From IMG/VR virus record IMGVR_UViG_3300042898_000529, positions 1-25,820 of that record: a stretch of DNA of 25,820 bases; one strand, written 5' to 3'. Source of the stretch: a virus. The position numbers were made by a program, and so were the translations under genes. Below the pieces are notes generated by a model that did no database searches, was not told the DNA's origin, and was given only the letters and a program-made list of their open reading frames with translations. Numbering within the stretch: position 1 is the first letter of the stretch; each line of letters begins with the position of its first letter. This document shows positions 11,250-23,760 of the stretch, piece after piece.

Positions 11250-11795
11250 CTACTTAATATATTGTTCAAGAATATGAAATGGAGCCGAAGTTCCATTGTT
11301 ATTAATTGCTGCAATTTCTATTGCTTCTAGTGCAGACACTCCTGCATGTAATGCACCCAGTGCATAATCACCACCAGAACCAATTGCGTAAAGACCTGTG
11401 TTATTCATTGCTATGGCAAAATCACTATCGATTTCAAATAAACTACCATTGATTCCAATAATAAGACTAAGTTCAAACTTATTGTCTTCACTATCATTTG
11501 TCTTGGTAAATTCAATTCCAGATTCAGTTAGTGTCTGTTTTAATGATGGGGCAACTTTATTAATTACAAACTCATAAAGATTTAATTTTGCTTTTGCTGT
11601 TACTACTGGTGGAATCCACCCATGCAGTACCACTTGTAAAGCACGATAGTCACCAGCACCACCAATAATGTAACTTCCACGTTCAACTGCCTTTACCATG
11701 TCAGGGTGTGTGTAAATTTTTCCATCTGCTACTACGCGAGAATCACTGACAATGACACAACCTTCTGTGCTTTGTACACCTACGATTGTTGTCAT
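11250..11795 (-). CDS. proteasome/HslV-like Ntn hydrolase, candidate prohead protease
   Basis: This 181-residue protein matches the proteasome beta/HslV fold. It reads M then TTIVGVQSTEGCVIVSDSRVV, where the Thr after Met would be the nucleophile Thr1 and the SD pair gives the canonical Asp17. Lys34 in VKAV corresponds to the catalytic Lys33 with one extra residue. SYIIGGAGDYRAL (41-53) and LYAIGSGGDYALGALHAG with ALEAIEIAA (135-163) match the HslV core. A GTG nine bases upstream is in frame, but the AGGTGGGG ribosome-binding site fits this ATG. Methionine removal alone would then expose Thr1, as in bacterial HslV. No HslU-type ATPase is seen. The position between portal and capsid genes is where phages usually encode the prohead protease. 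Confidence 0.85.
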   Translation of the reverse strand: MTTIVGVQSTEGCVIVSDSRVVADGKIYTHPDMVKAVERGSYIIGGAGDYRALQVVLHGWIPPVVTAKAKLNLYEFVINKVAPSLKQTLTESGIEFTKTNDSEDNKFELSLIIGINGSLFEIDSDFAIAMNNTGLYAIGSGGDYALGALHAGVSALEAIEIAAINNNGTSAPFHILEQYIK

Positions 11796-11809
11796 TGTCC
11801 CCACCTAGT

Positions 11810-15975: not shown

Positions 15976-16007
15976 CAGTTATATCCCCTTATAAACCCAC
16001 ATTAAAC

Positions 16008-16025
16008 ACCCGTCAGTAAACGGGT
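16008..16025 (-). other. hairpin in terminase mRNA leader
   Basis: The arms ACCCGT (16008-16013) and ACGGGT (16020-16025) pair perfectly over 6 bp with a 6-base loop. The hairpin lies 33 bases upstream of the terminase ATG in the minus-strand leader. No T-run follows, so a terminator is unlikely; an effect on translation or RNA stability is more plausible. Confidence 0.45.
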
Positions 16026-16036
16026 ATAACTATCCC

Positions 16037-16064
16037 AATATATATATTATATTATTATATATAA
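16037..16064. other. 28-bp pure A/T tract
   Basis: Every base from 16037 to 16064 is A or T, with TA steps predominating, so the duplex would melt easily. It lies in the leader of the leftward transcript beside the nested dyads at 16065-16095. It could serve as an unwinding element of an origin. The sequence alone cannot separate this from a simple A/T-rich leader. Confidence 0.4.
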
Positions 16065-16095
16065 GAGTCGCGGAGTCTTAAACGGAGCGACTCCG
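16065..16095. other. three mutually exclusive hairpins at the leftward transcript start
   Basis: Three perfect dyads share the same bases: GAGTCGC (16065-16071) with GCGACTC (16087-16093), CGGAGTC (16071-16077) with GACTCCG (16089-16095), and CGGAG (16083-16087) with CTCCG (16091-16095). The predicted start of the leftward transcript falls at about 16095, so the mRNA would begin with this structure. It could protect the 5' end or switch between forms. Read as DNA it could be an operator. Confidence 0.5.
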
Positions 16096-16101
16096 TTATG
16101 T

Positions 16102-16130
16102 ATTATATACATAATAGATAACCTGTTCAA
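16102..16130 (-). promoter_or_regulatory. leftward (virion operon) promoter with -10 in a palindrome
   Basis: On the minus strand, TTGAAC (16125-16130) and TATAAT (16102-16107) are separated by exactly 17 bp. This is a perfect -10 and a four-of-six -35 for the vegetative sigma factor. The -10 lies inside TTATGTAT, TAT, ATACATAA (16096-16114), a perfect 8-bp dyad. The promoter faces the terminase gene and is the best candidate for driving the whole virion operon. A protein binding the dyad would block it. Confidence 0.65.
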
Positions 16131-16189
16131 AGTACTAAAACCGAACAACCAGTTTGAATATATTTTTATTAGCCGCAACTGATATATAT

Positions 16190-16209
16190 AAAAGCCCTGG
16201 TCACAGGGC
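16190..16209 (-). terminator. leftward terminator-like hairpin
   Basis: On the minus strand GCCCTG, a TGAC loop and CAGGGC form a perfect 6-bp GC-rich stem (16194-16209) followed directly by TTTT and an A/T stretch. This is the form of a Rho-independent terminator reading leftward. It lies upstream of the virion promoter and could insulate that promoter from leftward transcription starting in the repeat region. Confidence 0.5.
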
Positions 16210-16267
16210 ATATGGGCCCCATATAACAGAAAATTTATACGGGAGACATAATATGTACAGGGGCCCC
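16210..16267. repeat. two GGGCCCC-centred palindromes
   Basis: ATATGGG, C, CCCATAT (16210-16224) is a 7+1+7 dyad abutting the terminator hairpin. GGGGCCCC (16260-16267) is a second palindrome 35 bp further on. Both share the GGGCCCC core, so they may be sites for one protein. Confidence 0.4.
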
Positions 16268-16295
16268 AGTTAAAAGACTATGGGCTCAAATGGAA

Positions 16296-16359
16296 TTGTC
16301 GACTTGTCTATTTGTCGACAAATTGATTTGTCTCCATGTGTATTTGTCTCTATTTGATG
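16296..16359. repeat. 8-bp-phased TTGTC iteron-like array
   Basis: The tract reads as eight consecutive 8-mers in perfect register: TTGTCGAC, TTGTCTAT, TTGTCGAC, AAATTGAT, TTGTCTCC, ATGTGTAT, TTGTCTCT, ATTTGATG. TTGTC starts at 16296, 16304, 16312, 16328 and 16344. The third unit is also the centre of a perfect 14-bp palindrome (16310-16323). Such phased short repeats are typical of binding sites for an oligomeric initiator or repressor. Confidence 0.65.
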
Positions 16360-16437
16360 GGTAGACACTATGCCCTTAATTGTCTAACTATAAATTAAAG
16401 GTTTATTCTTAGACAGACTATCCCCCAAGTGTCTACC
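16360..16437. repeat. nested GTCTA/TAGAC inverted repeats
   Basis: GGTAGACACT (16360-16369) and AGTGTCTACC (16428-16437) form a perfect 10-bp inverted repeat. Nested inside are TGTCTAA (16381-16387) and TTAGACA (16409-16415), a perfect 7-bp pair. All four arms share the GTCTA/TAGAC core. The array follows directly after the TTGTC repeats and looks like a set of operator half-sites. Confidence 0.5.
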
Positions 16438-16449
16438 AAGTGGGGGGCA

Positions 16450-16530
16450 CTCAGTTAATTCTCAGGAAGTTCACAGGAAACTCTAAGGTTATCCATGTCC
16501 GTATGTCTCAGGTAATTCTCAGGAAACTCT
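16450..16530. repeat. direct repeat CTCAGKTAATTCTCAGGAA
   Basis: A 19-bp unit occurs at 16450-16468 and 16507-16525 with 18 of 19 identical bases. A related CAGGAAACTCT occurs at 16474-16484 and again at 16520-16530. Spacing between the two main copies is 57 bp. A binding-site role is likely, since nothing here is coding. Confidence 0.5.
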
Positions 16531-16533
16531 CAG

Positions 16534-16560
16534 ACTAGGTGTGACCTAGTTCACATGTGA
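16534..16560. promoter_or_regulatory. paired operator-like dyads upstream of rightward promoter 1
   Basis: ACTAGGT, GTG, ACCTAGT (16534-16550) is a perfect 7+3+7 dyad. TCACATGTGA (16551-16560) is a perfect 10-bp palindrome adjoining it. GTGACCT occurs in both, at 16541 and 16557. They end 28 bp before the -35 of promoter 1, a normal distance for an activator or repressor. Confidence 0.5.
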
Positions 16561-16587
16561 CCTGCATCACTTGAGCGTGTTTTCGAT

Positions 16588-16616
16588 TTGACATGGGGGG
16601 ATTGAGCGTGTAAAGT
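16588..16616 (+). promoter_or_regulatory. rightward promoter 1
   Basis: TTGACA (16588-16593) and TAAAGT (16611-16616) are separated by exactly 17 bp. The decamer TTGAGCGTGT occurs at 16571-16580 and at 16602-16611, 31 bp apart (about three helical turns). The second copy covers the spacer end and the first base of the -10 box, so a protein bound there would block RNA polymerase. Confidence 0.6.
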
Positions 16617-16666
16617 GTGCTTTGTAAATCGGATAGGGGGCAGACCCCCAAAGGGTTACAAAGTAC
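16617..16666. other. long nested hairpin at the promoter 1 start point
   Basis: GTGCTTTGTAA (16617-16627) pairs with TTACAAAGTAC (16656-16666) over 11 bp, with one G-T wobble in the RNA. Inside it, GGGGG (16636-16640) and CCCCC (16645-16649) form a second stem. It begins immediately after the -10 box, so part acts on DNA and part would be in the leader RNA. An operator or attenuator is possible. Confidence 0.5.
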
Positions 16667-16689
16667 GACACGCCGTCAATCGTGGGTAA

Positions 16690-16724
16690 TTGACAAAGTG
16701 AGAATAGTTCGATACAATTCTCAC
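16690..16724 (+). promoter_or_regulatory. rightward promoter 2 with embedded 8-bp dyad
   Basis: TTGACA (16690-16695) and TACAAT (16713-16718) are 17 bp apart, close to the vegetative consensus. GTGAGAAT (16698-16705) and ATTCTCAC (16717-16724) form a perfect 8-bp inverted repeat that encloses most of the spacer and -10 box, the geometry of a repressor operator. ACGACACGCCGTCAAT (16665-16680) upstream recurs at promoter 3. Confidence 0.65.
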
Positions 16725-16794
16725 AAGATAGGCAGACCTAGCCTCACTTATGTGAGCCCCTAGAGCGTCACTTATCAAAATTGCATAGTGTCAT

Positions 16795-16863
16795 GGTAGG
16801 GGGTGGCTTGATTGCCACTAGTAGCAGACCCGTTGGGGTTGGTTGCACGACTCACCCCCTACC
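16795..16863 (+). ncRNA. 69-nt structured element closed by 11-bp stem
   Basis: GGTAGGGGGTG (16795-16805) and CACCCCCTACC (16853-16863) are perfectly complementary over 11 bp. Between them GTGGC and GCCAC (16803-16807 and 16814-16818) form a 5-bp hairpin, overlapping the stem end by 3 bases. ACCC with GGGT (16828-16839) gives a small third arm. It lies downstream of promoter 2, so it would be transcribed as a three-way-junction-like RNA. It lacks the TTC loop and arm spacing of a tRNA. Small RNA, leader element and DNA operator are all possible. Confidence 0.4.
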
Positions 16864-16882
16864 TACACGACACGCCGACAAT

Positions 16883-16911
16883 TTGACAAAGTAAAGCAAG
16901 TGTAGTAAAGT
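16883..16911 (+). promoter_or_regulatory. rightward promoter 3
   Basis: TTGACA (16883-16888) and TAAAGT (16906-16911) have a 17-bp spacer. The upstream ACGACACGCCGACAAT (16867-16882) repeats the element upstream of promoter 2 with one base changed and runs straight into the -35. Transcription would start near 16918, giving a leader of about 25 bases for the 99-residue gene. Confidence 0.65.
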
Positions 16912-16941
16912 ACCACTTAACAACTAGACGAAAGGCACGAC

Positions 16942-17479: not shown

Positions 17480-17619
17480 TGACACTCTCAGCAAGTGACT
17501 TGTTCGCACTACTGATAGCGTTGCTATCGGTCAACATGCTACTAATCGTAGCCTTCCGTAGAGTGTACGTATTAGAGCGTAGACTCCGTAGGTACGAGGG
17601 CTACTATGACGCACGATAA
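17479..17619 (+). CDS. small single-pass membrane protein
   Basis: This 46-residue frame starts at 17479, overlapping the upstream stop by one base. One hydrophobic helix spans residues 8-26 (LFALLIALLSVNMLLIVAF), and a strongly basic tail follows (RRVYVLERRLRRYEGYYDAR). The basic residues after the helix predict a cytoplasmic C-terminus. It could be a host-membrane effector or a minor lysis protein, but it lies far from the endolysin gene. There is no recognisable family. Confidence 0.6.
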   Translation: MTLSASDLFALLIALLSVNMLLIVAFRRVYVLERRLRRYEGYYDAR

Positions 17620-17794
17620 CCTACTATTGAACCTTACACAACGTGAGGTTGAGGTCGTCCGTATGGCACTACGCCTACAAGAGGACAACCATAAGCGCAA
17701 CGATTTCACTCACCTATTGGTTGAGGTACAAGACTTGCGCTCCAAGATTGCAGACATGATTATTGACAACGCACGTGAATTGACAAGGGCATAA
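17606..17794 (+). CDS. small helical hypothetical protein
   Basis: The ATG at 17606 lies inside the end of the membrane-protein gene (14-base overlap) and has GAGGG upstream. The 62-residue product is acidic-basic and fully helical in appearance (LLNLTQREVEVVRMALRLQEDNHKRN, then VEVQDLRSKIADMIIDNARELTRA), with a possible coiled coil. No family is recognised. It ends before promoter 5, so it closes the small operon of three genes driven by promoter 4. Confidence 0.65.
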   Translation: MTHDNLLLNLTQREVEVVRMALRLQEDNHKRNDFTHLLVEVQDLRSKIADMIIDNARELTRA

Positions 17795-17808
17795 CACTAT
17801 GCTATACT
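17780..17808 (+). promoter_or_regulatory. promoter 5, upstream of the amidoligase cassette
   Basis: TTGACA (17780-17785) and TATACT (17803-17808) have an exact 17-bp spacer. GCATA, ACAC, TATGC (17789-17802) is a 5-bp dyad inside the spacer. The start point would be near 17815, about 27 bases before the amidoligase ATG. The cassette therefore has its own strong host-type promoter in addition to read-through. Confidence 0.65.
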
Positions 17809-17841
17809 ACAACTACAAGATGACGAGAGGGGGTGAGATAC

Positions 17842-19137
17842 ATGGAGAATGATGACAACACTAGAGAGTGTACGACTTGCTCTAGTACGATAGATGACGG
17901 TGACGAGATAGTCATGAACGAGCACGTTTACTGCACAGATTGTGTGTTTGTGTGTGAGGATTGTGATGATGTAAGAGACACAGATAACCGCATACTCGTT
18001 GGAGTCATGAGTTACTGTGAGGATTGCGCTAGTATTTGTGAACGTTGTTCTGAAGGCATGGACAATGACTCTAGTCGCACAGTAGACAGAGACGAGTCAT
18101 GGTGTGAGTATTGTTGGGAGAATTACAGTTACTATTGCGAGTCATGTTGTGAGTCGTGGTCAGGTGATTGTACTTATGTACAGGATACGCCATACTGTGA
18201 GCGTTGCTACGAGTCGGAGTGTTATTGGTGTGAGGATTGTGATGAGAGTTACACCAACGATAACCGTTGCGAGTGTGGTGATGATGACAACAGAGGTGGT
18301 GGTAGGTGTTGTCGTGCGTACCGTTCAAGCGGTACCATACATGACTACTCATGCAAGCCTAGCCCTATGTTCAAGGGCACAAGCAAGCACAACATGTATC
18401 TAGGCTTCGAGTTAGAGACAGAGGTACAATCGCTTGATACTGGTGCTTACTACGCCTCTAGTAACCTAGACGGTGTAGCATACCTCAAGCATGACGGAAG
18501 TATTGGTAATGGGTTCGAGATAGTAACCCACCCACATACACACCAACAGTATCGTGACAATAGTAAGTTACTATGGGATACGATAGACAGATTACGCACA
18601 GACTATGGTGCTAGGTCATGGGATACAGATACCTGCGGCTTACACATACACCTAAGTCGTAAGGGTTTCAGTAGTGGCGCACACCTTCACAGGTTCATAG
18701 CCCTAGTGTACCACAATGCACCACAGATGATGAAGTTAGCAGGTCGTAAGACTAGGTTCGCTAGGTTCAATGACGTGTACACCTTTGATGAGTACGACCG
18801 ACCAGTATTCTCAATCAAGCACAAGGTCGGACACCCTAACAGTTTCATGAGTGAACGCTACTCAGCAGTCAATACTCAGAACGAACACACCATAGAATTG
18901 CGCTTCTTTAGAGGCACAATGAATACAAGTGGAGTGCTAAGTGCCCTAGACTTAGCGCAAGCCATGGTAGAATACACTAGGGAACTACGACTAGATGACG
19001 TCAAACTTGGCGCACTATCTTGGGACTGGTTCGCTGACTATGTAGTGTCTAACAATGGACTCTACCCCGACCTGTACTCTAGGTTGGACAAGATACAATC
19101 AGTAGATGTCAACAAGCCTATCAAGGCTAACGCGTAG
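17842..19137 (+). CDS. amidoligase-family protein with large N-terminal zinc-ribbon region
   Basis: The 431-residue protein combines two parts. Residues 8-171 carry 26 Cys, mostly as CxxC pairs in LIM-like or ribbon-like order, so several structural zincs are likely. Residues about 184-425 show the Amidoligase_2-type (glutamine-synthetase-like carboxylate-amine ligase) pattern: GFELETE (188-194), KHDGSIGNGFEIVTHP (216-231), CGLHIHLSR (265-273), SERYSAVN (337-344) and TIELRFFRGTMN (350-361). The Glu, His and Arg residues of these motifs would bind ATP-Mg and the carboxylate. The family joins an amine to a carboxylate using ATP; the substrate here is unknown. I chose the ATG at 17842 over a GTG nine bases earlier, because the GGGGG ribosome-binding site fits only the ATG. 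A glutamine amidotransferase follows 12 bases later. Confidence 0.85.
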   Translation: MENDDNTRECTTCSSTIDDGDEIVMNEHVYCTDCVFVCEDCDDVRDTDNRILVGVMSYCEDCASICERCSEGMDNDSSRTVDRDESWCEYCWENYSYYCESCCESWSGDCTYVQDTPYCERCYESECYWCEDCDESYTNDNRCECGDDDNRGGGRCCRAYRSSGTIHDYSCKPSPMFKGTSKHNMYLGFELETEVQSLDTGAYYASSNLDGVAYLKHDGSIGNGFEIVTHPHTHQQYRDNSKLLWDTIDRLRTDYGARSWDTDTCGLHIHLSRKGFSSGAHLHRFIALVYHNAPQMMKLAGRKTRFARFNDVYTFDEYDRPVFSIKHKVGHPNSFMSERYSAVNTQNEHTIELRFFRGTMNTSGVLSALDLAQAMVEYTRELRLDDVKLGALSWDWFADYVVSNNGLYPDLYSRLDKIQSVDVNKPIKANA

Positions 19138-19149
19138 GGAGATGATAAC

Positions 19150-19992
19150 ATGTGCTTACTTATAGTGTGCGAGCCTGGCTCGACACCTAATAAAGCAGAC
19201 TTACACGCTGGTGCGTGTAGTAATCCACACGGATTTGGATTTGCTATTCATGCTGGCGATAAGATTATCTCAGAGCGTAGCATGTCTGCTAAGAAATCAA
19301 TCGCACGCTTCTTGGAATTACGCAAGCAATTCCCAGACGGATACGCCATGTGGCACGCACGATACGCCACACATGGTGTTAAGAACGAGCAGAACTGTCA
19401 CCCATTCGTGGTTGGTGGTGATGAGCGTACTTACCTAGCACACAACGGTGTGCTTGACATAAGTATCGGCAAGTCTGACAAGCGTAGCGATACGCGAGTC
19501 TTCGCTGAGGATACACTACCTAGAATTGGTGGTGTGTCTGCACTCGATGATGATAACGTATGGATTATGGTAGAGTCGTGGGCTAGTGGTAGCAAGGTTG
19601 CTATCCTAACCTGCGACCCGACCGCACAACACCCTATGTATCTCATCAACGAGAAGTCAGGGTCATGGGACAATGAGGGTATTTGGTGGTCTAATCAGAG
19701 CCACAAACGCACAACATACCTAGAGCCTAAGCCCACAATGGCAATCAAACCTTATGCTTACGAGCCACGTGAGTACTCAATGCTTAAAGATGGTATGTGG
19801 GACTATGAAGTAGAGGTAGACTTAGAAGTCTGCCCCTATTGCGAGTCAGCCACAGACTTGACAGACAACCCGTACTACTGTAACATGTGCAAGTCATGCT
19901 TTGATTGTTCAATCATGATAGATGACTGTCTATGTTACACACCAAACACTAACTGGCAAAGCAAACAATCGCTAAGCCAATTCCTATACTAA
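19150..19992 (+). CDS. class II glutamine amidotransferase-like protein with zinc-ribbon tail
   Basis: This 280-residue protein begins Met-Cys, so Met removal would expose Cys1, the N-terminal nucleophile of class II amidotransferases. Further motifs fit the family: NPHGFGFAIH (25-34), MWHARYATHG (67-76), NCHPF (82-86), LAHNG (96-100) and SDTRVFAE (113-120). The domain hydrolyses glutamine to release ammonia. The C-terminus has eight Cys in CPYC, CNMC, CFDC and CLC (228-262), a probable zinc ribbon absent from the basic domain. It shares an operon with the amidoligase, so ammonia or an amidated group could pass between them. No separate synthase domain is present, so the acceptor is supplied elsewhere, most simply by the amidoligase. 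Confidence 0.85.
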   Translation: MCLLIVCEPGSTPNKADLHAGACSNPHGFGFAIHAGDKIISERSMSAKKSIARFLELRKQFPDGYAMWHARYATHGVKNEQNCHPFVVGGDERTYLAHNGVLDISIGKSDKRSDTRVFAEDTLPRIGGVSALDDDNVWIMVESWASGSKVAILTCDPTAQHPMYLINEKSGSWDNEGIWWSNQSHKRTTYLEPKPTMAIKPYAYEPREYSMLKDGMWDYEVEVDLEVCPYCESATDLTDNPYYCNMCKSCFDCSIMIDDCLCYTPNTNWQSKQSLSQFLY

Positions 19993-20009: not shown

Positions 20010-20276
20010 ATGTCCACAACCCAAGCCATTCTCGGTCTTGCTGATGAACTACGTATCATCGCAGACGAGATTTCATACAACGCGTTCGACTCATCGAGCG
20101 ACTACCCTAAGCGTGGTACTATCGTGAAGGCACTACCTTCACAGACACGCTTCAAGCCTAAGTCTATGTGGGTATCACTAGGCAACGGCACATACAAGCA
20201 CCTTACTGGTAGCAAGGGGCTTACCACAACGCACGAACGCCTTGACGGTTACACAGAAGTAATCTTCGAAGCATAA
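20010..20276 (+). CDS. hypothetical protein after amidotransferase gene
   Basis: The 88-residue protein has a helical N-terminus (TQAILGLADELRIIADEI) and a beta-rich basic remainder (YPKRGTIVKALPSQTRFKPKSMWVSLGNGTYKHL). Residues 30-80 could form a small barrel of the SH3 or KOW type, but this is only a guess from strand pattern. It follows the amidotransferase by 17 bases with ACAGAGAGGT as its ribosome-binding leader. That leader recurs before the next gene. It may belong to the same cassette. Confidence 0.65.
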   Translation: MSTTQAILGLADELRIIADEISYNAFDSSSDYPKRGTIVKALPSQTRFKPKSMWVSLGNGTYKHLTGSKGLTTTHERLDGYTEVIFEA

Positions 20277-20623: not shown

Positions 20624-20896
20624 ATGAATGGTCTATGTACAGGTGACGTTAACCCTGACCTATGGTTTTCTAACACAGTTAACAATGCAGTACGAGCACT
20701 AACGATTTGCTCATACTGTCCTGCTGTGGTAGAATGTAAGGCAGAAGGCATGAAGCCAGACAACATAGACTATGGAGTTTGGGGTGGCACACTATCAGGT
20801 GAGCGACTATTAGAAGCAGGTGAACCTATCGATAGCGAGTACAGAAGTACAGCGGTAGCGTTTGCTACTAAGGTTAGAGAGAAGGTAAGCCTGTGA
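20624..20896 (+). CDS. WhiB-family iron-sulfur transcription regulator
   Basis: The 90-residue protein has the four Cys that bind a 4Fe-4S cluster: C5 (LCTGDVNPDLWF), C29 and C32 (ICSYC), and C38 (VECKAEGM). The family turn GVWGG follows at residues 51-55. WhiB proteins bind the vegetative sigma factor of actinobacteria and change promoter choice. Phage copies, such as that of mycobacteriophage TM4, can repress host WhiB genes. The basic C-terminal helix (TAVAFATKVREKVSL) is shorter than in host members. The stop overlaps the GTG of the endolysin gene. This gene is the best evidence for an actinobacterial host. Confidence 0.92.
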   Translation: MNGLCTGDVNPDLWFSNTVNNAVRALTICSYCPAVVECKAEGMKPDNIDYGVWGGTLSGERLLEAGEPIDSEYRSTAVAFATKVREKVSL

Positions 20897-21285
20897 AAGC
20901 ATTAAGTTTCTTGCTACTTGTATTAGTAGTATGGTTTGTATCGGACAACTCAAAACAAAGCACGGACACAACAGACAAAGGCGTGCAAGTTACTTGGAGT
21001 AAGGAAGATAGCAAGGCATACGCTAGAGATAAACTCAGCGAGTGGCAAGATGAGCAGTGGTCATGCCTCAGCAGATTATGGGGTAAAGAATCAGCATGGA
21101 ATCCTGATGCTTGGAATAGCATTCGGGTGATGGGGAAGCATGCTGGTGGTATACCTCAACTGTTGGGGCTTGACCCTGCAACACCAGCACCACGACAGAT
21201 AGAGCGTGGGCTGGATTATATTTACTACAGATACGGAACGCCATGCGACGCATGGCTACACTTCAAACAGAAAGGTTGGCACTGA
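20893..21285 (+). CDS. membrane-anchored lytic transglycosylase-like endolysin
   Basis: The start is GTG at 20893, overlapping the WhiB stop, with AAGG upstream. Residues 4-16 form a hydrophobic segment (LSFLLLVLVVWFV) that is either a signal-anchor or a weak signal peptide. Residues 50-130 match the SLT/Rpf-like lysozyme superfamily: WSCLSRLWGKESAWNPDAWN with Glu66 as the probable catalytic acid, AGGIPQLLG, then RQIERGLDYIYYRYGTPCDAW. Cys58 and Cys118 are placed for a disulfide, which fits an extracytoplasmic enzyme. It would cleave peptidoglycan glycan strands. No classical holin lies beside it, so export through the anchor is possible. Confidence 0.82.
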   Translation: MKALSFLLLVLVVWFVSDNSKQSTDTTDKGVQVTWSKEDSKAYARDKLSEWQDEQWSCLSRLWGKESAWNPDAWNSIRVMGKHAGGIPQLLGLDPATPAPRQIERGLDYIYYRYGTPCDAWLHFKQKGWH

Positions 21286-22215: not shown

Positions 22216-22333
22216 ATTCAAAGCAACTAAGTTTACTGCATTATTTATAGGTGCTGTTGTTCTTGGAGGTGCGAGTTTATCATCAGCAATAGCACTATTC
22301 ATCTGTGTTATTGTGCTCGTAGCCTTCCTCTAA
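22208..22333 (+). CDS. small membrane protein, last gene of rightward module
   Basis: The frame ATGAATAG at 22208 overlaps the upstream stop by 8 bases, the same overlap seen in this run. The 41-residue product (MNRFKATKFTALFIGAVVLG, then GASLSSAIALFICVIVLVAF) has a basic N-terminus and two short or one long hydrophobic helix. This is compatible with a holin-like or other minor membrane protein. There is no clear ribosome-binding site, so it relies on coupling. Its last 39 bases overlap the convergent sigma-like gene on the other strand. Confidence 0.5.
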   Translation: MNRFKATKFTALFIGAVVLGGASLSSAIALFICVIVLVAFL

Positions 22334-22990
22334 AGATTCCGCCTCTGCTGGTTCAACCTCTTTACCAGCAGGGGTGGAGTCTTCATCTCTATAGGGCTTA
22401 TGCCCACCTATTTTATTAATCAAACGATTAAGCGCACGCTTAGTTCTCATGCGTGCCGCATCTTCCGAACCCAAGGATAGTGCATTAGATATCTCCTTGT
22501 AATCCATTGACTCAGCATGGCGTAGAAAGATTATGCGTCTATCATCTTTGCTTAACTTCCAATAACCCCAGTCAATTTCAATCATCATTGCCATTAAGTT
22601 TCCGCCCTCAGATGGTGCGGTTGGTGTGCTACTACCACCAAGATTTAACTGTGGTGTAATTGTTAAGTCATGTCGCAAGACAGCAGGCAACATAGCCTCT
22701 ACAACTTCAGGTGCATAGTAAAATAAATCAGAGACTTCATAACCAACTGATTTGGCTTTCCATCTCTGACAATAATCTAATGCCTGATTGCGTAGGCTAC
22801 GATAGATTAAGTTCTTTGCATCTCTCTTACCTATCGCTTCCCACTCATCTAACTTATTAGGGTGCTCGATGAACCACTCGTATAATGATTGCTTGATATC
22901 CTCTAACTCAACCATAGTATATTTTCTATGGTACTCAGAGGCTACAGCCACTACAACATAATCCCAAGGTTCAATGCGTTGCCAGTTCAT
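22295..22990 (-). CDS. sigma-70-like factor
   Basis: The 231-residue protein has a sigma-type layout. Residues 29-84 resemble region 2 (LEDIKQSLYEWFIEHPNKLD, then RDAKNLIYRSLRNQALDYCQRWKAK). Residues 145-195 form a region 4-like HTH (KLSKDDRRIIFLRHAESMDYKEISNALSLG). The C-terminal 35 residues are acidic. It would redirect host RNA polymerase to phage promoters, or the HTH could serve another DNA-binding role. The start overlaps the upstream gene by 20 bases. The C-terminal end overlaps the convergent membrane-protein gene by 39 bases. Confidence 0.72.
   Translation of the reverse strand: MNWQRIEPWDYVVVAVASEYHRKYTMVELEDIKQSLYEWFIEHPNKLDEWEAIGKRDAKNLIYRSLRNQALDYCQRWKAKSVGYEVSDLFYYAPEVVEAMLPAVLRHDLTITPQLNLGGSSTPTAPSEGGNLMAMMIEIDWGYWKLSKDDRRIIFLRHAESMDYKEISNALSLGSEDAARMRTKRALNRLINKIGGHKPYRDEDSTPAGKEVEPAEAESLEEGYEHNNTDE
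22342..22374. terminator. hairpin at the convergent gene junction
   Basis: CCTCTGCTGG (22342-22351) pairs with CCAGCAGGGG (22365-22374) over 10 bp with one wobble and a 13-base loop. It begins 9 bases after the rightward module's last stop, inside the 3' end of the sigma-like gene. No T-run follows it. It may slow or end rightward transcription, but part of the pairing is constrained by coding sequence. Confidence 0.35.
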
Positions 22991-23381
22991 CTGCCTTTGC
23001 TTTCTTATATAGTCGTGTTGCCGACATTAAATCATCAACAGTTATTAACTTACCCTTAGAAAGATTAGGTGGTATGTTACATTCAATCTCTCTACCGAAT
23101 TCTTTTACTGCATATTTAAGTGCACCAATCGGTACAATCAAGGTGCTTTCTTCTAGTACAAATGCCCAGTATGCTGCCTCTGTTACCATCAATCCTGATG
23201 GAGCCCAGTCCTCAATCTTCTTGAAGAAACACTCAGTCTCAATGTATAGGTTGTTGGTCTTAGCCCACTTGCGGTCACGCTTTACTTCTACTGTGCGTCC
23301 ACCAGTAAGCAACTCATCTACTAACTGCTCACCCTTACGTCCATATCCAAAGTCTAAATCGAATGAAGATTTATTAGTCAT
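22971..23381 (-). CDS. PD-(D/E)XK-like nuclease or related protein
   Basis: I start at ATG 23381 (MTNKSSFDLDFGYGRKGEQL), overlapping the upstream stop by 8 bases, the same style as the other junctions; an upstream ATG exists but has no ribosome-binding site. The 136-residue protein shows E18, D22, then VEVKRDR with E32 and K34 after a short loop, then NLYIETEC and SGLMVTEAAYWAF. This order fits restriction-endonuclease-like folds of small phage proteins that may process recombination or host DNA. A classical motif I Asp is not clear, so activity is uncertain. Confidence 0.6.
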   Translation of the reverse strand: MTNKSSFDLDFGYGRKGEQLVDELLTGGRTVEVKRDRKWAKTNNLYIETECFFKKIEDWAPSGLMVTEAAYWAFVLEESTLIVPIGALKYAVKEFGREIECNIPPNLSKGKLITVDDLMSATRLYKKAKADELATH

Positions 23382-23760
23382 TGTCCCATTGCTTTCGTAA
23401 AACCAGCAACCCAATGATTGCATAGTTAGCCATGTCCTTGAAGGAATCTTCTAAGGATTCGTGCTCAGGGTTTGCACCACTGTCAATCAGGTTATTGATT
23501 CGTGCTAACTTGTCATGCATACGTACACGTAAACCATTGATTGCACCGCCAGGTGCTTGTGAGATATTCTTAGGACCATAGTCCTTATGCTTGCTCAGTA
23601 ACAACTCAGACAACTCATTGACTGTGTTGCTCAAGTGCACCTCTAGATGGACTTCGCGTGCAATAGAGGTATCGTTAAGGTTATCTTTAGCCGACCGCCT
23701 TGATTCTGATACGACTCTATCTGTAATCCCAGTCCTGATACGTATTGGATAATCTGCCAT
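23374..23760 (-). CDS. Nmad1/DUF1599-like protein
   Basis: The 128-residue protein carries the pattern KHKDYGPKNISQAPGGAINGLRVRMHDKLARINNLI (57-92), then HESLEDSFKDMANYAIIGLLVL. This matches the DUF1599 or nucleotide-modification-associated (Nmad1) family: a conserved DYG, VR..DK..R and a final ES..D..D.ANYA motif, related to all-alpha nucleotide pyrophosphohydrolases. Members accompany DNA base modification or nucleotide metabolism in phages. No modification enzyme is visible in this window, so the partner must lie outside or the role may be housecleaning. Confidence 0.75.
   Translation of the reverse strand: MADYPIRIRTGITDRVVSESRRSAKDNLNDTSIAREVHLEVHLSNTVNELSELLLSKHKDYGPKNISQAPGGAINGLRVRMHDKLARINNLIDSGANPEHESLEDSFKDMANYAIIGLLVLRKQWDND

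Follow-up and report, generated by a model that had tools for sequence, protein, structure and literature searches.

A phage gene pair predicted to form a glutamine-dependent amidating enzyme, with conserved cysteine-rich regions on both proteins

Introduction

Several groups of phages carry an amidoligase of the Amidoligase_2 family close to a class II glutamine amidotransferase (GATase). In the phiEco32-, LUZ24- and RIO-1-like phages, these genes belong to larger cassettes that additionally encode a COOH-NH2 ligase, an ATP-grasp enzyme and a gamma-glutamyl cyclotransferase (PMC5498523, PMC3890496, PMC11945000). Such cassettes have been named peptidoglycan modification modules (PMC5498523, PMC11945000), and the gene list of UFV-P2 has its Amidoligase_2 and class II GATase genes near each other (PMC3890496). 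The prediction that phage amidoligase-glutaminase pairs act on the cell wall or in superinfection dates from 2009: a study of OM43 phages credits Iyer et al. 2009 with linking phiEco32 to cell-wall modification and superinfection exclusion (PMC10580990). That study, published in 2023, reported a PF12224 and PF13522 pair in MEP401/402 and in more than 30 metagenomic genomes, and noted that the pair of Mycobacterium phage Marvin had been linked to secondary metabolites or host interaction (PMC10580990). In cells, a ligase and a glutaminase, MurT/GatD, form a two-protein system for the glutamine-dependent amidation of a peptidoglycan carboxylate (PMC3267633). Our literature search found no experiment on the phage pair or on the larger cassettes, and the role in the cell wall given in publications was itself predicted from the context of the genes.

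Here we analyze a virus record of 25.8 kb (the window), a fragment with 44% G+C. An initial annotation had singled out two adjacent genes in it, for an amidoligase and a GATase with large Cys-rich modules, as the best candidate for an undescribed system. This part of the proposal is not supported, since the gene pair is already known from other phages: it has been named in Marvin and MEP401/402, with cell-wall and superinfection hypotheses attached.

Results

Leftward from about 16 kb, the window carries its head genes (terminase, portal and major head protein), which are similar to their counterparts in Streptomyces phages. A gene for a WhiB-type regulator is located at 20624. Together, these genes point to an actinobacterial host. 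The pair is located in the divergent, rightward region. About 970 bases between the divergent gene blocks (15976-16941) contain no open reading frame of at least 60 amino acids; this stretch has three strong promoter-like sites on the plus strand (16588, 16690, 16883) and is probably an early promoter region. Both open reading frames of the pair were confirmed as initially called (Table 1). The ATG of the ligase gene is preceded by AGGGGGTGA, and a GTG at 17833 is an alternative upstream start. The pair had also been credited with its own promoter. Indeed, a sigma-70-type promoter lies just upstream and is conserved in close relatives: 31 of 60 upstream regions, that of the window among them, have it 57-63 bp upstream of the ligase gene.

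Table 1. Features of the amidoligase-GATase locus (positions in the window)
Feature	Position	Strand	Details
Sigma-70-type promoter	17780..17808	+	TTGACA-N17-TATACT, extended -10 (TG); 11/12 consensus bases
Amidoligase gene	17842..19137	+	431 aa; PF12224 above gathering cut-off; PHROG 2443 "amidoligase enzyme"; model pLDDT 82.7
Tandem zinc-knuckle (LIM-like) array	17869..18276	+	Residues 10-145, five-unit; from Cys positions, conservation, model hairpins and LIM fold matches
Glutamine-synthetase-fold catalytic domain	18400..19014	+	About residues 187-391; 65-sequence alignment
Class II glutamine amidotransferase gene	19150..19992	+	280 aa; 12 bp after ligase gene; PF13522 and PF13230; PDB matches GlmS, PurF, EgtC
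Glutaminase domain	19153..19698	+	Cys2 (mature Cys1), R71, T74-H75-G76, N82-x-H84-P85, H98-N99-G100, D114-T115; 65-sequence alignment
Eight-Cys C-terminal tail, C228-C262	19831..19935	+	Conserved in 63-64/65 sequences (window's phage group and Marvin)

The family assignment of the first gene stands: its product matches Amidoligase_2 (PF12224) with 26.4 bits, above the Pfam cut-off of 22. We aligned 65 sequences, taking in Marvin, MEP401 and ctgrD200 at 24-36% identity. Residues G188, E190, E192, D218, S220, E226, P231, H268, H270, S272 and R273 are invariant in the ligase, as are R302, R339, N344, T350, E352 and R354. The conserved Glu/His/Arg set of a glutamine-synthetase-like active site is intact among them (E190, E192, E226, H268, H270, R302, R339, E352 and R354). 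Fold matches of the ligase model in the PDB were YbdK, GmaS (gamma-glutamylmethylamide synthetase), glutamine synthetase and Dop/PafA, which have a glutamine-synthetase-type fold in common with the ligase domain at 8-14% identity. YbdK and GmaS were best in Foldseek, with E of about 1e-5 and low TM-scores (0.26-0.33) for a query that was the two-domain model. To our knowledge, none of these four enzyme types carries a Cys array. A role of the ligase in the ATP-dependent activation of a carboxylate is thus a prediction, and one well supported by homology.

The second gene, initially read as a class II GATase, bears this out with matches to PF13522 (GATase_6; 33.8 bits, cut-off 27) and PF13230 (GATase_4; 29.1 bits, cut-off 23). 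Its N-terminal Cys and the R-x2-THG, N-x-HP, HNG and DT motifs are invariant in the 65 sequences, and neither this catalytic Cys nor the Glu/His/Arg set of the ligase is replaced in any of these relatives. The model has an Ntn-type glutaminase fold that matches GlmS, PurF and EgtC with E from 7e-7 to 8e-4; its confidence is moderate, with a pLDDT of 73 and values below 50 for residues 189-225 and 265-280. Glutamine hydrolysis is therefore the well-supported predicted activity of this protein.

Both proteins carry Cys-rich modules, as the initial annotation had noted. In the ligase, 26 of the 27 Cys precede the catalytic domain (residues 10-171), with C-x2-C pairs at residues 10, 31, 38, 59, 66, 88, 99, 119 and 127/130. 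The pattern, C-x2-C-x17-C-x2-C-x3 repeated with small variations, is near the spacing of tandem LIM-type zinc knuckles, for which we used C-x2-C-x16-23-[HC]-x2-C in tandem, with two zinc sites per domain, as the standard of comparison. This region contains ten C-x2-C motifs, against 3.4 expected on shuffling, and at least ten appeared in only 2 of 10,000 shuffles. At least 60 of 65 relatives keep most Cys of the array; for the first two pairs the number is 45-46. The model shows the array as a chain of hairpins (pLDDT of about 80-92), and the LIM proteins LMO2, PINCH and CRP1 are among its fold matches; weak PDB profile matches to LIM proteins were also found (E 0.05). Since no LIM model matched in a Pfam scan of the gene, we call the array LIM-like only. 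The array is a general, though not a universal, feature of the family: it has nearly gone in MEP401-type pairs, and it was not seen in the Comamonadaceae copy, in which the gene start is cut by the contig end. The number of units differs among lineages, while the catalytic core is fixed.

The eight Cys of the GATase lie at residues 228-262, in the pattern C-x2-C-x12-C-x2-C-x2-C-x2-C-x6-C-x-C, which is invariant in the 32 sequences of alignment A2; its four C-x2-C motifs were matched in 8 of 10,000 shuffles. Both Cys regions may bind zinc. The tail is found only in actinobacteria-associated pairs, namely the window type, Marvin, Nocardia and Actinoplanes (the last read from the sequence), and is absent from the MEP401-type, ctgrD200, Clostridia, Bdellovibrio and Comamonadaceae pairs that were scored. 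Scoring of the Cys modules left out two Nocardia pairs, one at a contig end and one missed by the text filter. In Clostridia, Bdellovibrio and ctgrD200 the ligase array is present and the GATase tail absent, so the array is independent of the tail. This weakens the earlier suggestion that the two regions build a shared scaffold, and we reject an obligatory one. In an incomplete literature search, we came across neither the LIM-like array nor the eight-Cys tail.

We then considered how the two genes are inherited. The ligase gene precedes the GATase gene, in strict order and 2-23 bp apart, in 88 viral loci with both genes readable, some of which share one contig. We also compared 27 syntenic contigs that include a related terminase along with 5.8 kb or more of the neighboring region: both genes are present in 16 and absent from 11, and no contig has a single gene. 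A GATase profile search of the whole records of 7 of the 11 pair-less contigs found nothing elsewhere. Hence, the cassette is dispensable and is inherited as a whole. The profile match, the catalytic motifs and the co-occurrence, any of which could have undone the initial annotation, all hold. Two small plus-strand genes flank the pair (17606-17794 and 20010-20276), in 7 and 5 of the 16 pair-bearing loci, respectively, and in none of the 11 pair-less ones; they are possibly parts of the cassette, or else merely restricted to close relatives.

In one viral collection, we confirmed 435 ligase matches and found 563 GATase matches; scans with the ctgrD200 and Marvin ligases as queries gave 1 and 2 loci, respectively. 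Adjacent pairs also occur on cellular contigs, in Nocardia, Actinoplanes, Clostridia, Bdellovibrio and Comamonadaceae assemblies, and resolvase- or ParB-like genes, read from the sequences, adjoin several of these copies. Two Nocardia contigs (L113 and L115) have two tandem amidoligase genes, each followed by a GATase gene where the contig allows; the second GATase of L115 was found by profile search. The pairs on these contigs that were scored have both the Cys array of the ligase and the eight-Cys GATase tail. Only 1 of 395 genomes of Nocardia's class has the pair. This rarity marks the pair as accessory, carried by mobile elements and not part of core metabolism, and a core bacterial enzyme is rejected. 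The distribution is that of a mobile accessory function.

Among the described relatives, Marvin (cluster S) has the adjacent genes gp105 and gp106 in identical order, with all catalytic residues and with eight Cys in the gp106 tail identical to those of the window. Identity to the window is 35-36%, and the Marvin ligase differs in its Cys array, which is much shorter, and in a long C-terminal extension. Most cluster S records annotate the ligase gene (Marvin gp105 and its relatives, locus L108) as "glutamine amidotransferase domain protein", which is probably a misannotation, as the gene that follows encodes the GATase. The OM43 phages MEP401 and MEP402 also have the amidoligase (PF12224) and GATase (PF13522) genes in identical order (PMC10580990). 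There the genes overlap, identity is 24-27%, the ligase has few zinc-type motifs, and the GATase lacks the Cys tail. With the phiEco32-, LUZ24- and RIO-1-like cassettes, the pair shares the combination of an Amidoligase_2 and a class II GATase. The gamma-glutamyl cyclotransferase (PF06094) was found in none of nine related viral contigs of 39-79 kb, with positive controls; the COOH-NH2 ligase (PF14395) was also found in none of the nine, but here the controls gave no match either. Because its relatives lack the cyclotransferase, we do not file the window pair with these cassettes, and we reject a truncated member of a larger peptidoglycan cassette.

Other genes of the window were compared between pair-bearing and pair-less loci. 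Next to the portal gene and directly following it, 11250-11804 (minus strand) encodes a protein of the proteasome/HslV fold (PF00227 above cut-off, PHROG 1040), perhaps a head maturation protease of unusual fold. It is present in 11 of 16 pair-bearing and 9 of 11 pair-less loci, and a link to the pair in a tagging-and-degradation scheme is rejected. In the rightward region that also holds the pair, directly after WhiB, 20893-21285 (plus strand) encodes a transglycosylase-like protein (PHROG 12661, NCBIfam AggPromo_Cterm) whose N-terminus contains a hydrophobic stretch; it is retained in nearly all relatives, with or without the pair. The WhiB and transglycosylase-like genes occur in all, or almost all, loci of both kinds and so give no sign of acting jointly with the pair. 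A sigma-factor-like protein (PHROG 354 sigma-K, weak Sigma70_r4) is encoded at 22295-22990 on the minus strand.

Discussion

Judged from its sequence, the pair is real, conserved and functional-looking, and joint action of the two products in amidating a carboxylate is well supported by homology; the catalytic residues are invariant down to 24-27% identity. We propose, tentatively and with a little under even confidence, that the pair is a glutamine-dependent amidating enzyme that is expressed from its own promoter and amidates a carboxylate of a cell-wall precursor, against superinfection or for the tuning of lysis. The genes would be transcribed from the sigma-70-type promoter, probably early in infection. 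The N-terminal Cys of the GATase would hydrolyze glutamine and release ammonia, which may be handed to the ligase; the ligase, with its glutamine-synthetase fold, would activate the carboxylate with ATP and join it to ammonia. The likeliest substrate would be a carboxyl group of a cell-wall precursor, comparable to the D-glutamate amidated by MurT/GatD, and the altered wall may block superinfection or tune lysis to the benefit of the phage. Through its LIM-like array, the ligase probably draws in a protein partner or a complex that carries the substrate.

A cell-wall precursor as the target is possible rather than probable. We favor it because papers on phiEco32-, LUZ24- and RIO-1-like phages propose this role for members of these families and because of the MurT/GatD precedent. 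MurT and GatD have the folds of a Mur ligase and a class I type glutaminase. These are unrelated to the folds of the window pair, and MurT/GatD is an analogue of the mechanism, not a relative. Our analysis yielded no result tying the pair to the cell wall. Several points speak against this target: the bearers and hosts are diverse (actinobacteria, OM43 methylotrophs, Clostridia), the cyclotransferase of the larger cassettes is missing from the related contigs, and the nearby transglycosylase-like gene, retained irrespective of the pair, offers no evidence of a link.

The pair may instead amidate or amide-link a specific host or phage protein brought in by the LIM-like array, with the aim of reprogramming a host function such as transcription. 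We regard this, one of the main rivals, as unlikely. LIM domains are protein-binding modules, the ligase fold matches the protein-modifying enzymes Dop/PafA, and an array that varies in unit number by lineage over a fixed catalytic core is expected if partners change. However, the window shows no substrate or partner protein, the occurrence of the HslV-fold gene with and without the pair gives no link to degradation tagging, and no protein amidase of the Amidoligase_2 family that is fed by a GATase is known to us. We think it improbable that the pair is zinc-scaffolded in a stricter sense, in which the array would recruit a defined host protein, phages and mobile elements would amidate a specific host macromolecule, and the actinobacterial eight-Cys tail would dock the glutaminase on the scaffold.

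The pair could also make or modify a small metabolite such as an amide signal or an anti-defense compound, rather than a macromolecule. According to the OM43 study, secondary-metabolite synthesis had been suggested for the Marvin pair (PMC10580990), the closest solved relatives, YbdK and GmaS, work on free amino acids, and the presence or absence of the pair is that of an accessory trait. We recognized no further biosynthetic gene beside the pair, however, and no PADLOC defense model matches, which makes this reading quite doubtful. The empty PADLOC result also led us to reject a known defense system.

It is very unlikely that the second gene product, instead of donating ammonia, hydrolyzes gamma-glutamyl or other amides and in this way trims or reverses what the ligase has made. 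EgtC, an Ntn hydrolase with a gamma-glutamyl amide substrate, is among its fold matches, and the GATase of the larger cassette has been placed among peptidoglycan degradation genes (PMC5498523). Against this, the GlmS and PurF glutaminase domains are its best matches in both sequence and fold, and it retains intact motifs of the glutamine site. Finally, we give hardly any credence to DNA hypermodification, in which the pair would modify a carboxylated nucleotide. The window does encode, at 23374-23760, a protein that scores above the cut-off for PF07659 ("nucleotide modification associated domain 1"), but it lies several kilobases off on the minus strand, opposite to the pair, and no base-modifying enzyme was among the genes scanned.

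Amidation of a cell-wall precursor remains our preferred reading. The two-gene form is compact and common, and is about the simplest version of the prediction made for phage amidoligase-glutaminase pairs. Its zinc-finger-like arms hint at a protein partner. Close relatives that lack the pair at the same place provide a natural control, and with a relative of the pair in cultured Mycobacterium smegmatis phages, its function is testable with ordinary tools.
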